Assembly (NCBI GenBank): GCA_034696485.1
Contig: JAQIWT010000319.1
Location: forward strand, 1-23,458
DNA: 23,458 bases
DNA from: Isohypsibius dastychi
Lineage: Eukaryota; Tardigrada; Eutardigrada; Parachela; Isohypsibiidae
Reading direction: 5' to 3'
Positions 4,641 to 13,600 of this stretch are shown piece after piece (position 1 is the stretch's first letter; the number at the start of each line of letters is the position of its first letter). The translations under genes and the position numbers were made by a program. The notes beneath the pieces were generated by a model, which saw nothing but the letters and a program-made list of their open reading frames with translations, made no database searches and was not told where the DNA came from.

Positions 4641-4646
4641 ATCAAA

Positions 4647-6032
4647 ATGGAAACTGCAACGGTTGTTAATCTCGATCATGATGCTTTTGCCAAAGCAGTC
4701 GTTAGCGCAGTGAACACTGCTCATTCAAAACCAGGAATGGTTCATCCACCAAATTTTTCTGGTGAAGATGATAGTGATGTTTCATCTTGGCTTAAACAAT
4801 ATGAATTAATTGCTAAAGCCCAGAATTGGAATCTTGCTATAAAACTTCAACGATTTCCTCTCTACCTGAAAGGTTTAGCTCAAGATTGGTACTTAAGCAG
4901 GCCCGAATCAGAAGAAAATGAAGTCCCCAAAACACCTGAAGTTGAATGGGATGATATCAAAGAACAAATGTTTGAACATTTTAGGGGTCCTAATTTTGTT
5001 TCAAGACAGCTAAGAACCCTTTACAGGAGAACAATGCAAGAGACTGACTCTCTTAATTCTTATTTAGCGGCAATTTTGAAGATCTACTTTGCTTTGGAAG
5101 ATTGCGGAAAAGAATTCGATGAAGAGGAGAAAGTAACTCGATTAATTGAAGGGCTTTCTGTAAAAGTTCATCAATACACCTCTCTTCTTGGACCTGAAAC
5201 TATCCAGTCTTTTTGTAATGATGCTGCAAAAGCTATTGATATGGTTAAGAAAGAACAAGCCTCAAATCGTCAAAGACGCTTTACTCCTCTTGAAAACCCC
5301 ACTTCCCTGATTGATCCTTGTGGAATTTCTGATCGAAATCAAAATCGAAATCAAGACCGAAATCAAGATCGGATTCAAAATCGAAATCGAAACGAAAATT
5401 CAAATCAGAATTTCAATCGATTTAATTTTCAAGAAAATAGAAAAATTTTTGATTTCAAAGATAATTCTGACAATTACAACCGTCAGCCTCGTGAAAATTT
5501 CCAAAGGAATTTCAATAACAATCAAGGTTTTAGACCTCGTGGAAATTTCAATAATCGTGGGAATAATTTCAATCGCAATTTTAATAACAACCGAAGAGGT
5601 TTCAACAACAATAATGATTCTTTCAGACCCAGATTCAATAATTCTGGATTTACAAACAATTGGAACTTCAACAGGAATAATCAGGATTTTCCCAATCAGA
5701 ATTTTGGAAATAGAAACTTCGGGAATCAATGCCCATACTTTTCTCGAAATTCAGGAAACTTCAGAAGAGACTCCGTCTCCAATTCAGCTGCAGGAAACAA
5801 AATGGTTTGCTTCTTTTGTGGCGGTGATCACATGGCGGCAAACTGCGACAAGAAAGCGACAGGACCTGCAGCCCGTCGTGAAGCCAACGTCTATATGATG
5901 AAAGAAGATCCAGACCAGCAACCTGGAACCTCTTCAACCGAATCCTCAAGAATCAAAGAATTTCCAGGATTCATGACCTTACAGCAGACTGCCAACTATA
6001 ACAAAACAGAGGTTTCACGACATGATTCATGA
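4647..6032 (+). CDS. Intact retrotransposon-type Gag protein without pol (possibly domesticated)
   Basis: This is a 461-residue uninterrupted ORF. Residues of about 45-205 match the Retrotrans_gag (capsid-like) pattern: WLKQYELIAKAQNW, then LYLKGLAQDWYLS, W101, FRGPNF, LRTLYRRTMQ and LIEGL. Residues of about 225-375 are a low-complexity Asn/Arg/Phe-rich segment (NRNQDRNQDRIQNRN and many N-F-N-x and RGNF repeats) likely to bind nucleic acid. Residues of about 388-400 form a zinc knuckle CFFCGGDHMAANC. This reads C-x2-C-x3-H-x4-C, one residue shorter than the retroviral C-x2-C-x4-H-x4-C. No protease, RT or integrase follows; the convergent ATPase pseudogene begins at once. The family assignment is secure at domain level. 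Whether it is a truncated Ty3/gypsy element or a domesticated gag cannot be decided from sequence alone. Confidence 0.8.
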   Translation: METATVVNLDHDAFAKAVVSAVNTAHSKPGMVHPPNFSGEDDSDVSSWLKQYELIAKAQNWNLAIKLQRFPLYLKGLAQDWYLSRPESEENEVPKTPEVEWDDIKEQMFEHFRGPNFVSRQLRTLYRRTMQETDSLNSYLAAILKIYFALEDCGKEFDEEEKVTRLIEGLSVKVHQYTSLLGPETIQSFCNDAAKAIDMVKKEQASNRQRRFTPLENPTSLIDPCGISDRNQNRNQDRNQDRIQNRNRNENSNQNFNRFNFQENRKIFDFKDNSDNYNRQPRENFQRNFNNNQGFRPRGNFNNRGNNFNRNFNNNRRGFNNNNDSFRPRFNNSGFTNNWNFNRNNQDFPNQNFGNRNFGNQCPYFSRNSGNFRRDSVSNSAAGNKMVCFFCGGDHMAANCDKKATGPAARREANVYMMKEDPDQQPGTSSTESSRIKEFPGFMTLQQTANYNKTEVSRHDS

Positions 6033-9140: not shown

Positions 9141-9875
9141 TTACATGTGCAGTGTTAAAAGGAGCTCAGCGTCGGGACGATTCTCTGGTGCAGCAGAGAT
9201 GGCGGCGCGTGATAGAGCGTCAGGATCAAGGTGTGTGTCTCCACTGCGGTAAACTACCTTGAGTTCAAACTGGCTCAAGAAGGTGGCTCACCGGGCGAGT
9301 TTCTGATTGTTCGTTTTTCAATGACTGCACCCATATTAGACTGTGGTGGTCGGTTACCACTGTACAGGGTTTACCAACCAGGTACTGTCTGAACTTCTCA
9401 ATCGCGTATACTCATCCAGTGCATTCCCTCTCAATCGCACTCATTGGTCTTTCTGACTCTGATATTTCCGAGAGCACTAGCATACTGGTTTCAGGCCTGC
9501 GGGGTGTTCCTGCGCCAACACCGCTCCGCATGCTGAGCTTGAGCTATCGACGCAGACGAAGTCTCGAGTGCATCTTCGAAGTGCGCTGGAACATTTGCTG
9601 TTGCCATCTTTGACTTGAGCGCGTCAAATGCTTTTTGACGTACGCTGGACCAGTCCAATAAGTCATGCTTCGTTTTATCTTTGTTAACCACCAAATGAAA
9701 ATCGCTGAGGGGAGGGGGGCGCATATCTTGGCAAAATTTGGGATAAACATGCGGTGAAAGCTGCATAATCCCACGAAGCTCCGGAGATAGGTTACCGTTC
9801 CTGGTACTGGAAAGTTTCGGACTGCCGCAATCTGCGCGTCATCTTTTTGCACCCCCTCTTTAGAGATTCCATATC
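9141..9875 (-). pseudogene. Ty3/gypsy pol relic: end of reverse transcriptase plus RNase H
   Basis: Read leftwards, this is the C-terminal part of a gypsy-type pol. The RT connection region comes first (ISKEGVQ, then VRNFPVPGTVTYLRSFVGL and FIPNFAKICAPL). Next come LLDWSSVRQKAFDALKSKM, the RNase H core ([25 protein letters not shown]) and the terminal YRSGDTHLDPDALSRA box. It is broken by frame changes near 9715 and 9500 and between 9320 and 9256, and by TGA at 9412-9414. The last readable frame ends at the TAA at 9141. It is the downstream half of the element whose upstream half lies at 13130-13600, separated by the Harbinger insertion. It is non-functional. Confidence 0.85.
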
Positions 9876-9878
9876 TTA
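9876..9878. repeat. Left TTA target-site duplication of the Harbinger element
   Basis: TTA directly precedes the left TIR, and the same TTA follows the right TIR at 13127-13129. A 3-bp TTA/TAA duplication is the signature of PIF/Harbinger insertion. Confidence 0.9.
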
Positions 9879-9903
9879 AGGTCGAAACATGCTTCACTTG
9901 CCG
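9879..9903 (+). repeat. Left terminal inverted repeat of Harbinger
   Basis: It begins AGGTCGAAACATGCTTCACT and continues TGCCG. It matches the reverse complement of 13102-13126 at 23 of 25 positions. Confidence 0.92.
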
Positions 9904-10214
9904 GTCTAGTGCAAGTCGTTTTTAGCAAGTTATTGCCGAACTTCAGAAAACCGTTGCTCGACTTGCCCAATTAAACTTGCGCAAGTGTTATTTGGCCCTC
10001 GCAATTAATTGCGCAATTGTCCTGGAACAAGGACTTGCTCTTCTTGCTTAGGGGATGGGGCCTGTTTCGGCAAGAAGCAAGAATTGCTGGGATTGAACCA
10101 ATCACCGTTCTGCTCGCTTAATGAAATTAAATTGAATTACCCATCGGTCCTAGATATACCGGCTTTCATATCCATTCTCGCTCTCTTCATTTTGCATTTT
10201 TACATAAAACAAAA
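9904..10214. repeat. Left subterminal region with CTTGC/GCAAG repeats
   Basis: About ten copies of CTTGC or its complement GCAAG occur between the TIR and about 10080, in both orientations and including GCGCAAG and ACTTGCGCAAGT. The right end shows the same motif. Such subterminal repeats are typical binding sites for transposase or the partner DNA-binding protein. The last 100 bp serve as leader of the MADF gene. Confidence 0.7.
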
Positions 10215-11170
10215 ATGACATACAAAGGTGACGTACAAGTCCTAATCGACGCTGTTGAAAAATTTCCGATGCTGTGGAACTCAAGTATTGCGGAATACCG
10301 GGACAAGCCAAAGAAAGACCTCGCTTGGGAAGAGATCGGAAAACAACTGGATTCTACACGTACGTAATTTTTTGTTTCAAATAGGTTACGGATTTTGCTG
10401 AGTGGTTCTTCTTGGTTTTTGTGATTTTATCAAAATAATAGATGATTATTCCAGCTGACGCCGTTTCGAAACGGTGGAAAAATTTGCGAACACAGTTTGG
10501 AGAGGAAGTGAAAACTCAGGCTCTTGGAGCGAGTGGAGCTAAAGGAAAGCCGAAAAAGAAGCCTTGGCAGTATTTTCAGCGTTTGCAGTTTTTGAAGGAC
10601 GTCATGACGCCCAGAATGTGAGTACTTAGAAACATGAAACAAAGAAAACATCAGTGACCCCTTGACTTCTGTATTTGGGCCAATTAACTTATGATATATA
10701 CTGTATTATTAAAGGTCATTCGGCAACGTTGAGGAGGAAGCGCAGGAGAGCGGCGAACTTGGCGATGGTGCCGAACAATCTCCTGACGCGGATGCCGCGG
10801 ATAATCCTGGTACCGGAATGCCGAAATCCACCGGACAGAAAAAGTTCACCCCTGGAAAACGAAAGCGTGGAGCAGGAGGCAACAACGAGTCTTTTCTCAG
10901 CAGAGCCGCGGATGCCATGGAAAGACTGAGCAAAGAAGACCCATCGGATGAATGGAGCCGTTTTGGTGCTAGAATTTTTTTAAAACCAGTTTCCATAGCA
11001 ACTTGGATGTCTTTTCAGGAAACCGCATTGCCGAAATGATTCGCGATGATGTTCGGTTCACCAGACGGGCCACGCTGAAGGGGGAAATTATGGACCTCGT
11101 TATTGCGGCATCCCGGGAACCTCAGGTTTTTGAAAACTACGACGGCCAGGAATATCAGGCACTTCAGTGA
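10215..11170 (+). CDS. MADF/BESS-domain DNA-binding protein, Harbinger accessory gene
   Basis: Four exons (10215-10359, 10455-10617, 10715-10965, 11019-11170) join into a 236-residue ORF with consistent phases (1, 2, 1). Residues of about 8-105 form a MADF domain: VLIDAVEKFPMLWN, DLAWEEIGKQL, VSKRWKNLRTQFGEE, KPWQYFQRLQFLKDVM. A Gly/Asp/Pro-rich linker with a nuclear-signal-like KKFTPGKRKRG follows. The C-terminal part has a BESS-like helical region (FLSRAADAMERLSKEDPSDE, then RIAEMIRDDVRFTRRATLKG). In PIF/Harbinger transposons a Myb/SANT/MADF-type protein is the usual second gene; it helps carry the transposase into the nucleus and onto DNA. Its place just inside the left TIR supports that role. 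Confidence 0.9.
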
Positions 11171-11403
11171 TTACTGTGTAATAGATGAGATAACTTCTTT
11201 CAAATGAAAGAAAGTCAGATCCGTGTTTAACAGAAATTTCCACTTAATGAGCTGTATCACACCGCCGAATTTCTATCATGTTCGATTTAGTTCCGCATTT
11301 GAATAAAAGAAGTAGGCTACTATGCTTGCAATTGTCCTGGGTCATTTATTATTCAAACAAAAAGAATCATTAGGAAACAACATAAGCAATCTGACATCAA
11401 CAA

Positions 11404-12871
11404 TTATCGAGTTCCCGCGAACTCGCCGAACGCTTGCCGATCTTGAAATTCAACTCGCCCTTCTTTGGAAAGAAAATAACTCCGAAATCGTTCGCGGATT
11501 TCCATTCCTTTACCGAAGATTTTTCGAGACCTTGGTTTTGGTTTTTCCTTGAAGATATTCTCATCTTCAGCGTCCTGGTCAGTGTCTTCCTGAAAAATGT
11601 CTGCACTGTCTTTTTCCGAATTTTTCCTGACGAAATTATGAAGGACGATGCATGCAGCAATAACGCGCTCCACCATCTCGGGCTCGTATTCTGCAATTTA
11701 GAGTTGAAGTTGAATGATAGATTGAACCCGAATCGTTCAGAATGACCTACCCATTTTTCTTATAAGAATTCGCCAACGCTTAGCCAGAATACCGAATGCA
11801 TTCTCGACTATTCGACGAGCTCTTGAGAGCCGGTAGTTGAAGATCCGCTCTCCGTCCTCCAGTTTACCAGAATAGGGTGTCAGCAGATTCTCAGCTAGCG
11901 GGAAAGCTTCGTCGGCGACAAATACTGGAGGAACTTTGACATTACTTCCCGGCAGAATAAGGTCATCCGGCTTGTCAAAGCTGCCGTTCGTTATCGCGCT
12001 CCCCAGTTTCCATCTGGAAAACGTTCCACCATCACTCTGCTTGCCATATCCCCCGATGTCAACAGCTACGAAGTTGTAGTCGGCATCTACAATTGCCATA
12101 AGAACCAAGGAATATTCTTTGAAGTAGTTGTAAAACATGGATCCCGAATTGCTTGGGCACTGAAACAAAAACAATTCATTTTTTTCAGTTTCAACAATTT
12201 TCTAAATTTCAAAATCATTGTTACTCACCCGTATAATAACATGTTTTCCGTCAATGGCGCCTAAGCAATGAGGGAACTGCCATCTTTTAAAAAACTCGTC
12301 GGCGTTCTTCTCCCAGACGGCTTTATTTGGAACCGGTAAGTATTCAGTTTTGAGACTGTCCCAAAGAACTTCACAGGTTTCCCGAAAAATTTTATCCACA
12401 GTTGATATTCCCATGCGGTAGCTGGCAGCAACAACATGTTTGTAGCTTCCGGTTGCCAAGATTCTGCGAAAGTTCACATCGCATTAAGCTCATTATCACT
12501 TGATATTTTCGCGTTGCTTCCCGCTCGTACTAAGAACACGTATTTCCAACTTACCTCAACGTGATTGCTAGTCTTTCTGCCGGGCCGATAGGAATGGAGT
12601 GGGTTCCCTGATGAATTAAGCGATCTTGAACGATGCTCAGCAGCCGGTCGAAATTCTCTTTGTCCATCCTAAAGTACCTGAAATGTCCTTCCGGGTCATG
12701 CTCACGCAGCTCCTGGACTAGAGTATGAAATTCGCCTTTTTCGAAGCGCTCCCTGTTGACTTTTCGTACATCGCAGGTTCTTATGTTGCGTAGTACTCCT
12801 GAAGCTACCAACATCGCTAGGAAAGTAACAGCCGCAATTCTCCGCTTTCGAGATATGACCTTATCAACCAT
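11404..12871 (-). CDS. PIF/Harbinger DDE transposase, intact
   Basis: Four exons (12871-12555, 12463-12229, 12159-11751, 11690-11404) join with phases 2, 0 and 1 into a 415-residue ORF. The N-terminal region has an HTH-like segment (ENFDRLLSIVQDRL, GPAERLAITLR, MGISTVDKIFRETCEVLWDSL). The DDE_Tnp_4 catalytic core follows: CLGAIDGKHVIIR (first Asp, about residue 177), VAVDIGGYGKQSDGGTF (second, about 227), ADEAFPLAENLLTPY, and RARRIVENAFGILAKRWRIL (Glu, about 303). It ends with MVERVIAACIVLHNFVR, typical of the family, and a charged tail. All catalytic residues are present. The start codon lies inside the right TIR, and transcription converges on the MADF gene. The usual length for this family is about 350-450 residues. 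Confidence 0.93.
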
Positions 12872-12962
12872 TCTCCAGAAACAAAATTTGAGAAGCTATC
12901 GACTTCTTTTAAATAATGTTTAGTCGGAAAAATTCGGCTGTGGTGAGGGCGGTATCTTGCCG

Positions 12963-13101
12963 GACTTTTTTGTGATCAGTTGCTCAAACAACCAGCAAAT
13001 ATTTCTTGGCCAGATCTTGCCGGGCAACTTTTATTGCCGGCAAGAAAAGTTGCGCAAGTTAGCAAGAAATTGCAGCAATTTTATTTTTTCTTGCCCAATC
13101 T
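12963..13101. repeat. Right subterminal region with CTTGC/GCAAG repeats
   Basis: Five copies of CTTGC/GCAAG occur inside the right TIR and a sixth lies within it, interspersed with GCCGGCAAG and GTTGCGCAAG. The density mirrors that of the left end although the surrounding sequence is unrelated, which suggests functional binding sites over simple sequence duplication. Confidence 0.7.
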
Positions 13102-13126
13102 CGGCAAGTGGAGCATGTTCCGACCT
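13102..13126 (-). repeat. Right terminal inverted repeat of Harbinger
   Basis: The reverse complement begins AGGTCGGAACATGCTCCACT, differing from the left TIR at positions 7 and 16. TTA follows directly at 13127-13129. Confidence 0.92.
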
Positions 13127-13129
13127 TTA
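13127..13129. repeat. Right TTA target-site duplication of the Harbinger element
   Basis: It is identical to the TTA at 9876-9878 on the other side of the element. Confidence 0.9.
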
Positions 13130-13600
13130 GCACTCTGGCCGAAGGGCAGCCAAATGTGCATTTGTTTGGGTTAAGAGCGAAGTTACCTTCGCGAATGTGC
13201 TGCAGAACAAGGCGCAAGCTGTCCGGATGATCGCCAAATGTTTTGGAAGCTACATTGATTTCATCAATGTATGCAATGCAATGCATGCATAACAAGTCTC
13301 CCATGAGAGTATTGATGGCCTGCTGAAAGATGGTCGTCGAGCATTGGATGCCAGTTGGTAGAGTGACATAGCAAAAGTTTCCAGCGGGAGTCATGATTGT
13401 GAGGAATGACGAACCTCTCCTGCAATTGACACTTGATGAAACCCAGCTCGCAAATCTGAGATAGTGAAGCAGCTGCAATTTCGCATGGCATCAAGAATGT
13501 CTGCTACGAATGGTATTATATACCGCAGAGTTTTAACGACCTTGTTCAACATTCTAAAGTCGCCAATGAGAGGCCAATGGGAGAAAGGAGAAATCCACAG
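13130..13600 (-). pseudogene. Ty3/gypsy pol relic: reverse transcriptase core
   Basis: Read leftwards from about 13600: PLIGDFRMLNKVVKT (RT domain 1), PFVADILDAMRN, SDLRAGFHQVSI (domain 3), then MTPAGNFCYVTLPTGIQCS and TIFQQAINTLMGDLL (domain 4). These are followed by the catalytic block CIAYIDEINVASKTFGDH and NFALNPNKCTFG. The usual Y-x-D-D motif reads YIDE (13260-13271), so one catalytic aspartate is lost. A frame change near 13400 separates domain 3 from domain 4. The segment ends at the Harbinger insertion. Upstream of about 13600 the gypsy similarity stops and unrelated sequence begins. Confidence 0.85.

Follow-up and report, generated by a model that had tools for sequence, protein, structure and literature searches.

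We characterized a PIF/Harbinger DNA transposon of 3,248 bp that occupies positions 9879–13126 of the window, the whole 23,458-nucleotide stretch of tardigrade DNA analyzed here (contig C319), and is flanked by TTA duplications. In all likelihood, the element is complete, with coding capacity of the autonomous type, and is inserted in a pre-existing Gypsy pol sequence. Nothing in its Harbinger anatomy departs from published descriptions, and it is a well-supported member of this established superfamily. Its value lies in being a coding-complete tardigrade PIF/Harbinger accompanied by a partner gene and a deleted relative, and in a motif at its ends that offers a concrete candidate binding site for the MADF accessory protein; beyond these points, it is an ordinary nested insertion.

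Anatomy of the element and its predicted genes

Published accounts of PIF/Harbinger elements describe two genes, one of them encoding a MADF/Myb-like partner, and a 3-bp duplication (PMC9710019, PMC2836001). The window element has this organization (Table 1). Its 25-bp terminal inverted repeats (TIRs) agree at 23 of 25 positions, exactly the two mismatches of the original prediction, and the predicted TTA duplication is in place on both sides; with the duplications included, a repeat finder extends the inverted similarity of the ends to 41 nt at 80%. The same ends occur in two other copies, C198 and C122, and the target duplication, of the TTA/TAA type characteristic of PIF/Harbinger, is TTA/TTA in both the window copy and C122.

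The element carries two convergent predicted gene models of four exons each, with GT..AG introns and no internal stops; exon borders were placed by eye from GT..AG and the reading frame, and the splicing is thus a predicted one. Both anticipated ORFs are present as these stop-free models. The plus-strand gene would encode a MADF/Myb-like protein (MADF_DNA_bdg, 81.9 bits, cut-off 22), a second gene of the Myb/SANT/MADF kind found in PIF/Harbinger, and the minus-strand gene a 415 aa transposase of the DDE_Tnp_4 type (95.9 bits, cut-off 24.8). All three catalytic residues reported in the original prediction were recovered: D177 and D267 lie in columns at which all 115 relatives agree, and E303 in one at which 113 of the 115 do. 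Animal PIF/Harbinger elements, such as zebrafish Harbinger3_DR and insect PIF, are described as similarly built, with two genes, TIRs, a 3-bp duplication, a DDE transposase of 400–500 aa and a Myb/SANT/MADF protein, but the accessory protein is shorter here, at 236 aa compared to 300–400 aa (PMC9710019). Fish Harbinger elements are described in PMC9179366, and the relevant part of a paper on tardigrade repeats (PMC11071193) only names PIF-Harbinger among the curated superfamilies.

A megablast search of the whole element against a plasmid collection gave no match, and the single match in a PDB sequence search, an antibody light chain (E 0.051), was not credible. Separately, we observed that intron 3 of the MADF gene model (window 10966–11018), only 53 bp long, is 96% identical to its counterpart in C198, compared to 75–83% for the other introns; some transcripts may read through it, or it may bear a signal.

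Table 1. Features of the transposon and of the Gypsy sequence on either side (window coordinates).
Feature	Positions	Strand	Remarks
Gypsy pol remnant, downstream half (end of RT, RNase H part)	9144–9875	-	several frame changes; DNA match to L036, protein pieces
Target site duplication, left (TTA)	9876–9878	.	related Gypsy copy L036 has single CAA here
Left terminal inverted repeat, 25 bp	9879–9903	+	23/25 match right end
Left subterminal region	9879–10110	.	10 CTTGC/GCAAG sites; conserved in C198, C74, C122
MADF gene exon 1	10215–10359	+	predicted
MADF gene exon 2	10455–10617	+	predicted
MADF gene exon 3	10715–10965	+	predicted
MADF gene exon 4, with stop	11019–11170	+	predicted
Transposase gene exon 4, with stop	11404–11690	-	predicted
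Transposase gene exon 3 (D267, E303)	11751–12159	-	predicted
Transposase gene exon 2 (D177)	12229–12463	-	predicted
Transposase gene exon 1	12555–12871	-	predicted
Right subterminal region	12950–13126	.	7 CTTGC/GCAAG sites
Right terminal inverted repeat, 25 bp	13102–13126	-	23/25 match left end
Target site duplication, right (TTA)	13127–13129	.
Gypsy pol remnant, upstream half (RVT_1)	13130–13576	-	frame change near 13410–13424; RVT_1 match, DNA and protein match to L036

Other copies and relatives of the transposase

Searching the genome assembly (30,365,899 bases, 30.4 Mb, in 1,648 contigs; all copy counts are lower bounds) with the whole element returned at least 9 matches at six places on six contigs (C319, which is the window, C198, C74, C122, C1266 and C543), and searches with the ends only returned 4 and 5 matches, adding no contigs. 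A COX1 search gave no matches, a sign that the assembly may not be complete. At least two full-length copies of the family are present, along with one complete deletion derivative and three partial ones; a clear excess of deleted over full forms is thus not seen in this assembly, and the earlier statement that full copies are uncommon compared to deleted derivatives finds no support in this family.

The second full-length copy, at C198:18609–21902, is identical to the window element at 2,876 of 3,245 aligned positions (88.6%) and is flanked by the triplets TGA and TAA, an imperfect duplication. Its coding sequence is damaged: the MADF frame contains two stops, the modelled start of the transposase lacks an ATG, and in the transposase gene the acceptor preceding the last exon is altered and the donor following the first exon is GC; residue 270 of its transposase is serine, where all 115 relatives have phenylalanine. 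The two transposases differ at 28 positions, 27 of which were comparable with at least 58 relatives, the window residue being the commoner at 17 and that of C198 at 9. Comparison of the two copies gives dN/dS values of 0.112 in the MADF gene (dS 0.30) and 0.088 in the transposase (dS 0.35); at about 0.1, these values show that both derive from ancestral copies that maintained functional proteins.

The deleted derivative, at C122:30039–30739, measures 695 bp, has TTA on both sides and retains roughly 226 and 181 bp of terminal sequence. C1266 consists of a right end only, and C543 is an eroded derivative truncated where its contig begins. At C74:24069–24295 (L003), about 227 bp of the transposon left end are followed by unrelated sequence, with no right end within the fetched stretch; this is either a copy that was broken or a remnant of one side only. 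The genome search proposed with the original prediction thus yielded another copy (C198), a short derivative (C122) and, as detailed below, a related empty site (C1210). It did not yield the near-identical copies that had been put forward as a sign of recent activity: there were none among the whole-element and end-only matches, and recent activity is therefore not demonstrated. A recent burst is likewise unsupported, none of the copies at the six places recovered by these searches being near-identical. We also considered that the window copy might be young, given its short protein branch (0.0093, compared to 0.057 for C198) and the changes in C198 at conserved residues. However, in a left-end alignment of four copies (226 positions), the window copy has 7 private changes and C198 only 3 (C122 has 9 and C74 has 12), and because the window copy has more of them than C198, we dropped this interpretation.

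These observations bear on whether the element, although structurally complete, is immobile, either silenced or inactivated by changes that leave its frames open, an alternative that we consider to fall only a little short of an even chance. The lack of near-identical copies in the assembly and the divergence of the only other full copy are consistent with it. So are the departures of the window transposase at 3 of 74 highly conserved columns (5 in C198; median of 2 and range of 0–11 among relatives) and its phenylalanine at position 353, where 93% of 67 aligned relatives have tyrosine. However, the gene models are open, the catalytic residues are intact and the TTA duplication is perfect; moreover, the three departures are common to the window copy and C198 and therefore predate both, with dN/dS remaining near 0.1.

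Co-domestication, in which a PIF element has given rise to a pair of host genes, as described in insects, is extremely improbable. Both genes are open and under purifying selection between copies, as such a pair might be, but PIF domestication is marked by the absence of TIRs and target site duplications (PMC9710019). Here both are present, and the unit is nested in Gypsy, is missing from a related Gypsy copy and recurs, with its ends, at C198.

The relatives of the transposase were retrieved by a search that scored only the 7,979 candidates sharing most words; of the 120 hits listed, 5 exceeded 520 aa and were set aside, and the other 115 entered a quick tree of 117 rows. Both full copies group with P0004 (Hypsibius exemplaris) and with P0008 and P0108 (Paramacrobiotus metropolitanus) at 97% SH-aLRT; these three are 44–48% identical to the window transposase over 86–95% of the query, whereas another Hypsibius transposase, P0011, belongs to a different clade. 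The highest identity among the matches listed, 56% over 68%, is to a metagenome fragment, P0006, which falls in a neighboring clade. With the transposase grouping with one Hypsibius and two Paramacrobiotus sequences, horizontal transfer is unsupported. For a BiP-type HSP70 of the same genome, queried as joined pieces with one exon left out and with alignments covering about 60%, the best named matches are Hypsibius exemplaris (92%, 1,045 bits) and Ramazzottius varieornatus (88%, 1,036 bits); other named sources among the 120 listed reach at most 967 bits, and metagenome entries 1,027–1,073 bits. Both this protein and the transposase grouping point to a tardigrade host, probably a eutardigrade.

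Genome-wide, there are at least 26 DDE_Tnp_4 matches, both full copies included, and at least 7 MADF matches on 5 contigs. On C101, a DDE_Tnp_4 match (27216–27683, plus strand) and a MADF match (29094–29216, minus strand) lie 1.4 kb apart in convergent orientation, possibly representing another two-gene Harbinger family.

Insertion into an older Gypsy sequence

The transposon interrupts a Gypsy pol remnant: the RVT_1 profile matches the upstream Gypsy side (13130–13490, minus strand), and near the element the Gypsy protein matches extend as far as 9144 on one side and 13576 on the other. DNA searches with the flanks found relatives on C1210 (right flank) and C11 (both flanks), and closer comparison matched both window flanks to C1210 (L036). 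In L036, the left-flank match ends at 9875 and the right-flank match starts at 13129, the insert is absent, and the two are separated solely by the 3 bp corresponding to the duplicated TTA, which read CAA in L036. A related Gypsy copy thus lacks the insert at exactly this point, and therefore Gypsy came first, in agreement with the order originally read from the sequence, with Harbinger inserting later. The C11 copy was rejected as an empty site because about 120 bp are absent there.

The accompanying claim that the two Gypsy halves lie in one frame holds at the junction. After subtraction of 3,251 bases (the element plus one TTA), the two Gypsy ORF frames are identical; a stop-free frame runs through the insertion point in C1210; and residues 602–624 and 624–700 of L036 match the two sides in the window, with no residues missing. 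Away from the junction it must be qualified: several frame changes are present on both sides, and the remnant is therefore a decayed fragment rather than a reverse transcriptase broken only by the insertion. Notwithstanding the short contigs of this assembly, the exact 3-bp duplication, the base-for-base match of the ends to those of the family and the exact continuity of the Gypsy sides with the related copy render an assembly artefact joining transposon to Gypsy extremely improbable.

Elsewhere in the window, at 4641–6032 (plus strand), there is an open frame of 463 aa, rich in Asn and Arg and with a Cys-His knuckle-like stretch, which we take to resemble retrotransposon gag. Its Pfam matches are all below the cut-off, and one more weak Gypsy protein match (32% identity) lies within it, at 5724–5930. 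A Pfam scan of 9 other window ORFs gave none over the cut-off.

A clustered motif at the ends and a proposed mechanism

The motif CTTGC/GCAAG occurs 17 times in the 409 bp of the two subterminal regions, compared to 3 times in the 2,839 bp inside the element, and 36 times in the remaining window (1.8 per kb). Among simulated sequences with the same neighbor frequencies, 0 of 2,000 per end reached the observed count, although this overstates the surprise because the motif was chosen after the ends were seen. In C122, there are 11 and 7 sites in the ends and none in the middle, and in C198, 10 and 6 in the ends and 9 inside. We then compared the conservation of the sites with that of their surroundings, leaving out the TIRs as well as C543 and C1266, both of which align at the right end. 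At the right end, in three copies, 28 of 30 site positions are conserved, against 90 of 135 in the surroundings, and 3 of 164 shifted masks did as well; at the left end, in four copies, the counts are 39 of 45 and 120 of 156, with 29 of 200 shifts as good. The right end thus shows extra conservation of the CTTGC sites, for which the left end gives no clear indication.

The Myb-like protein of zebrafish Harbinger3_DR is described as binding a 9-bp subterminal motif (PMC9710019), which makes the CTTGC/GCAAG array a plausible candidate site for the MADF accessory protein. As far as seen here, the array is particular to this family. A stronger proposal, which we regard as unlikely, is that this is a still-mobile autonomous tardigrade Harbinger family in which the array, and not the short TIRs alone, serves the MADF protein as a platform for assembly and for recruiting the transposase, and has to be retained by deleted derivatives if they are to move.

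Reasoning from rice Ping/Pong and zebrafish Harbinger3, we infer that the MADF protein would bind motifs clustered at both ends, for which the CTTGC-type sites are candidates, and would recruit the DDE transposase into the nucleus and onto the element ends. The transposase would then cut the element out and join it at a TTA/TAA target, duplicating the target. The same two proteins would also move deleted relatives in which about 226 and 181 bp of terminal sequence survive. In the PIF/Harbinger systems described, both proteins are needed and deleted derivatives are mobilized (PMC9710019, PMC2836001), as in rice Ping/Pong and mPing (PMC2836001); C122 is built like such a derivative and may have been mobilized in the same way.
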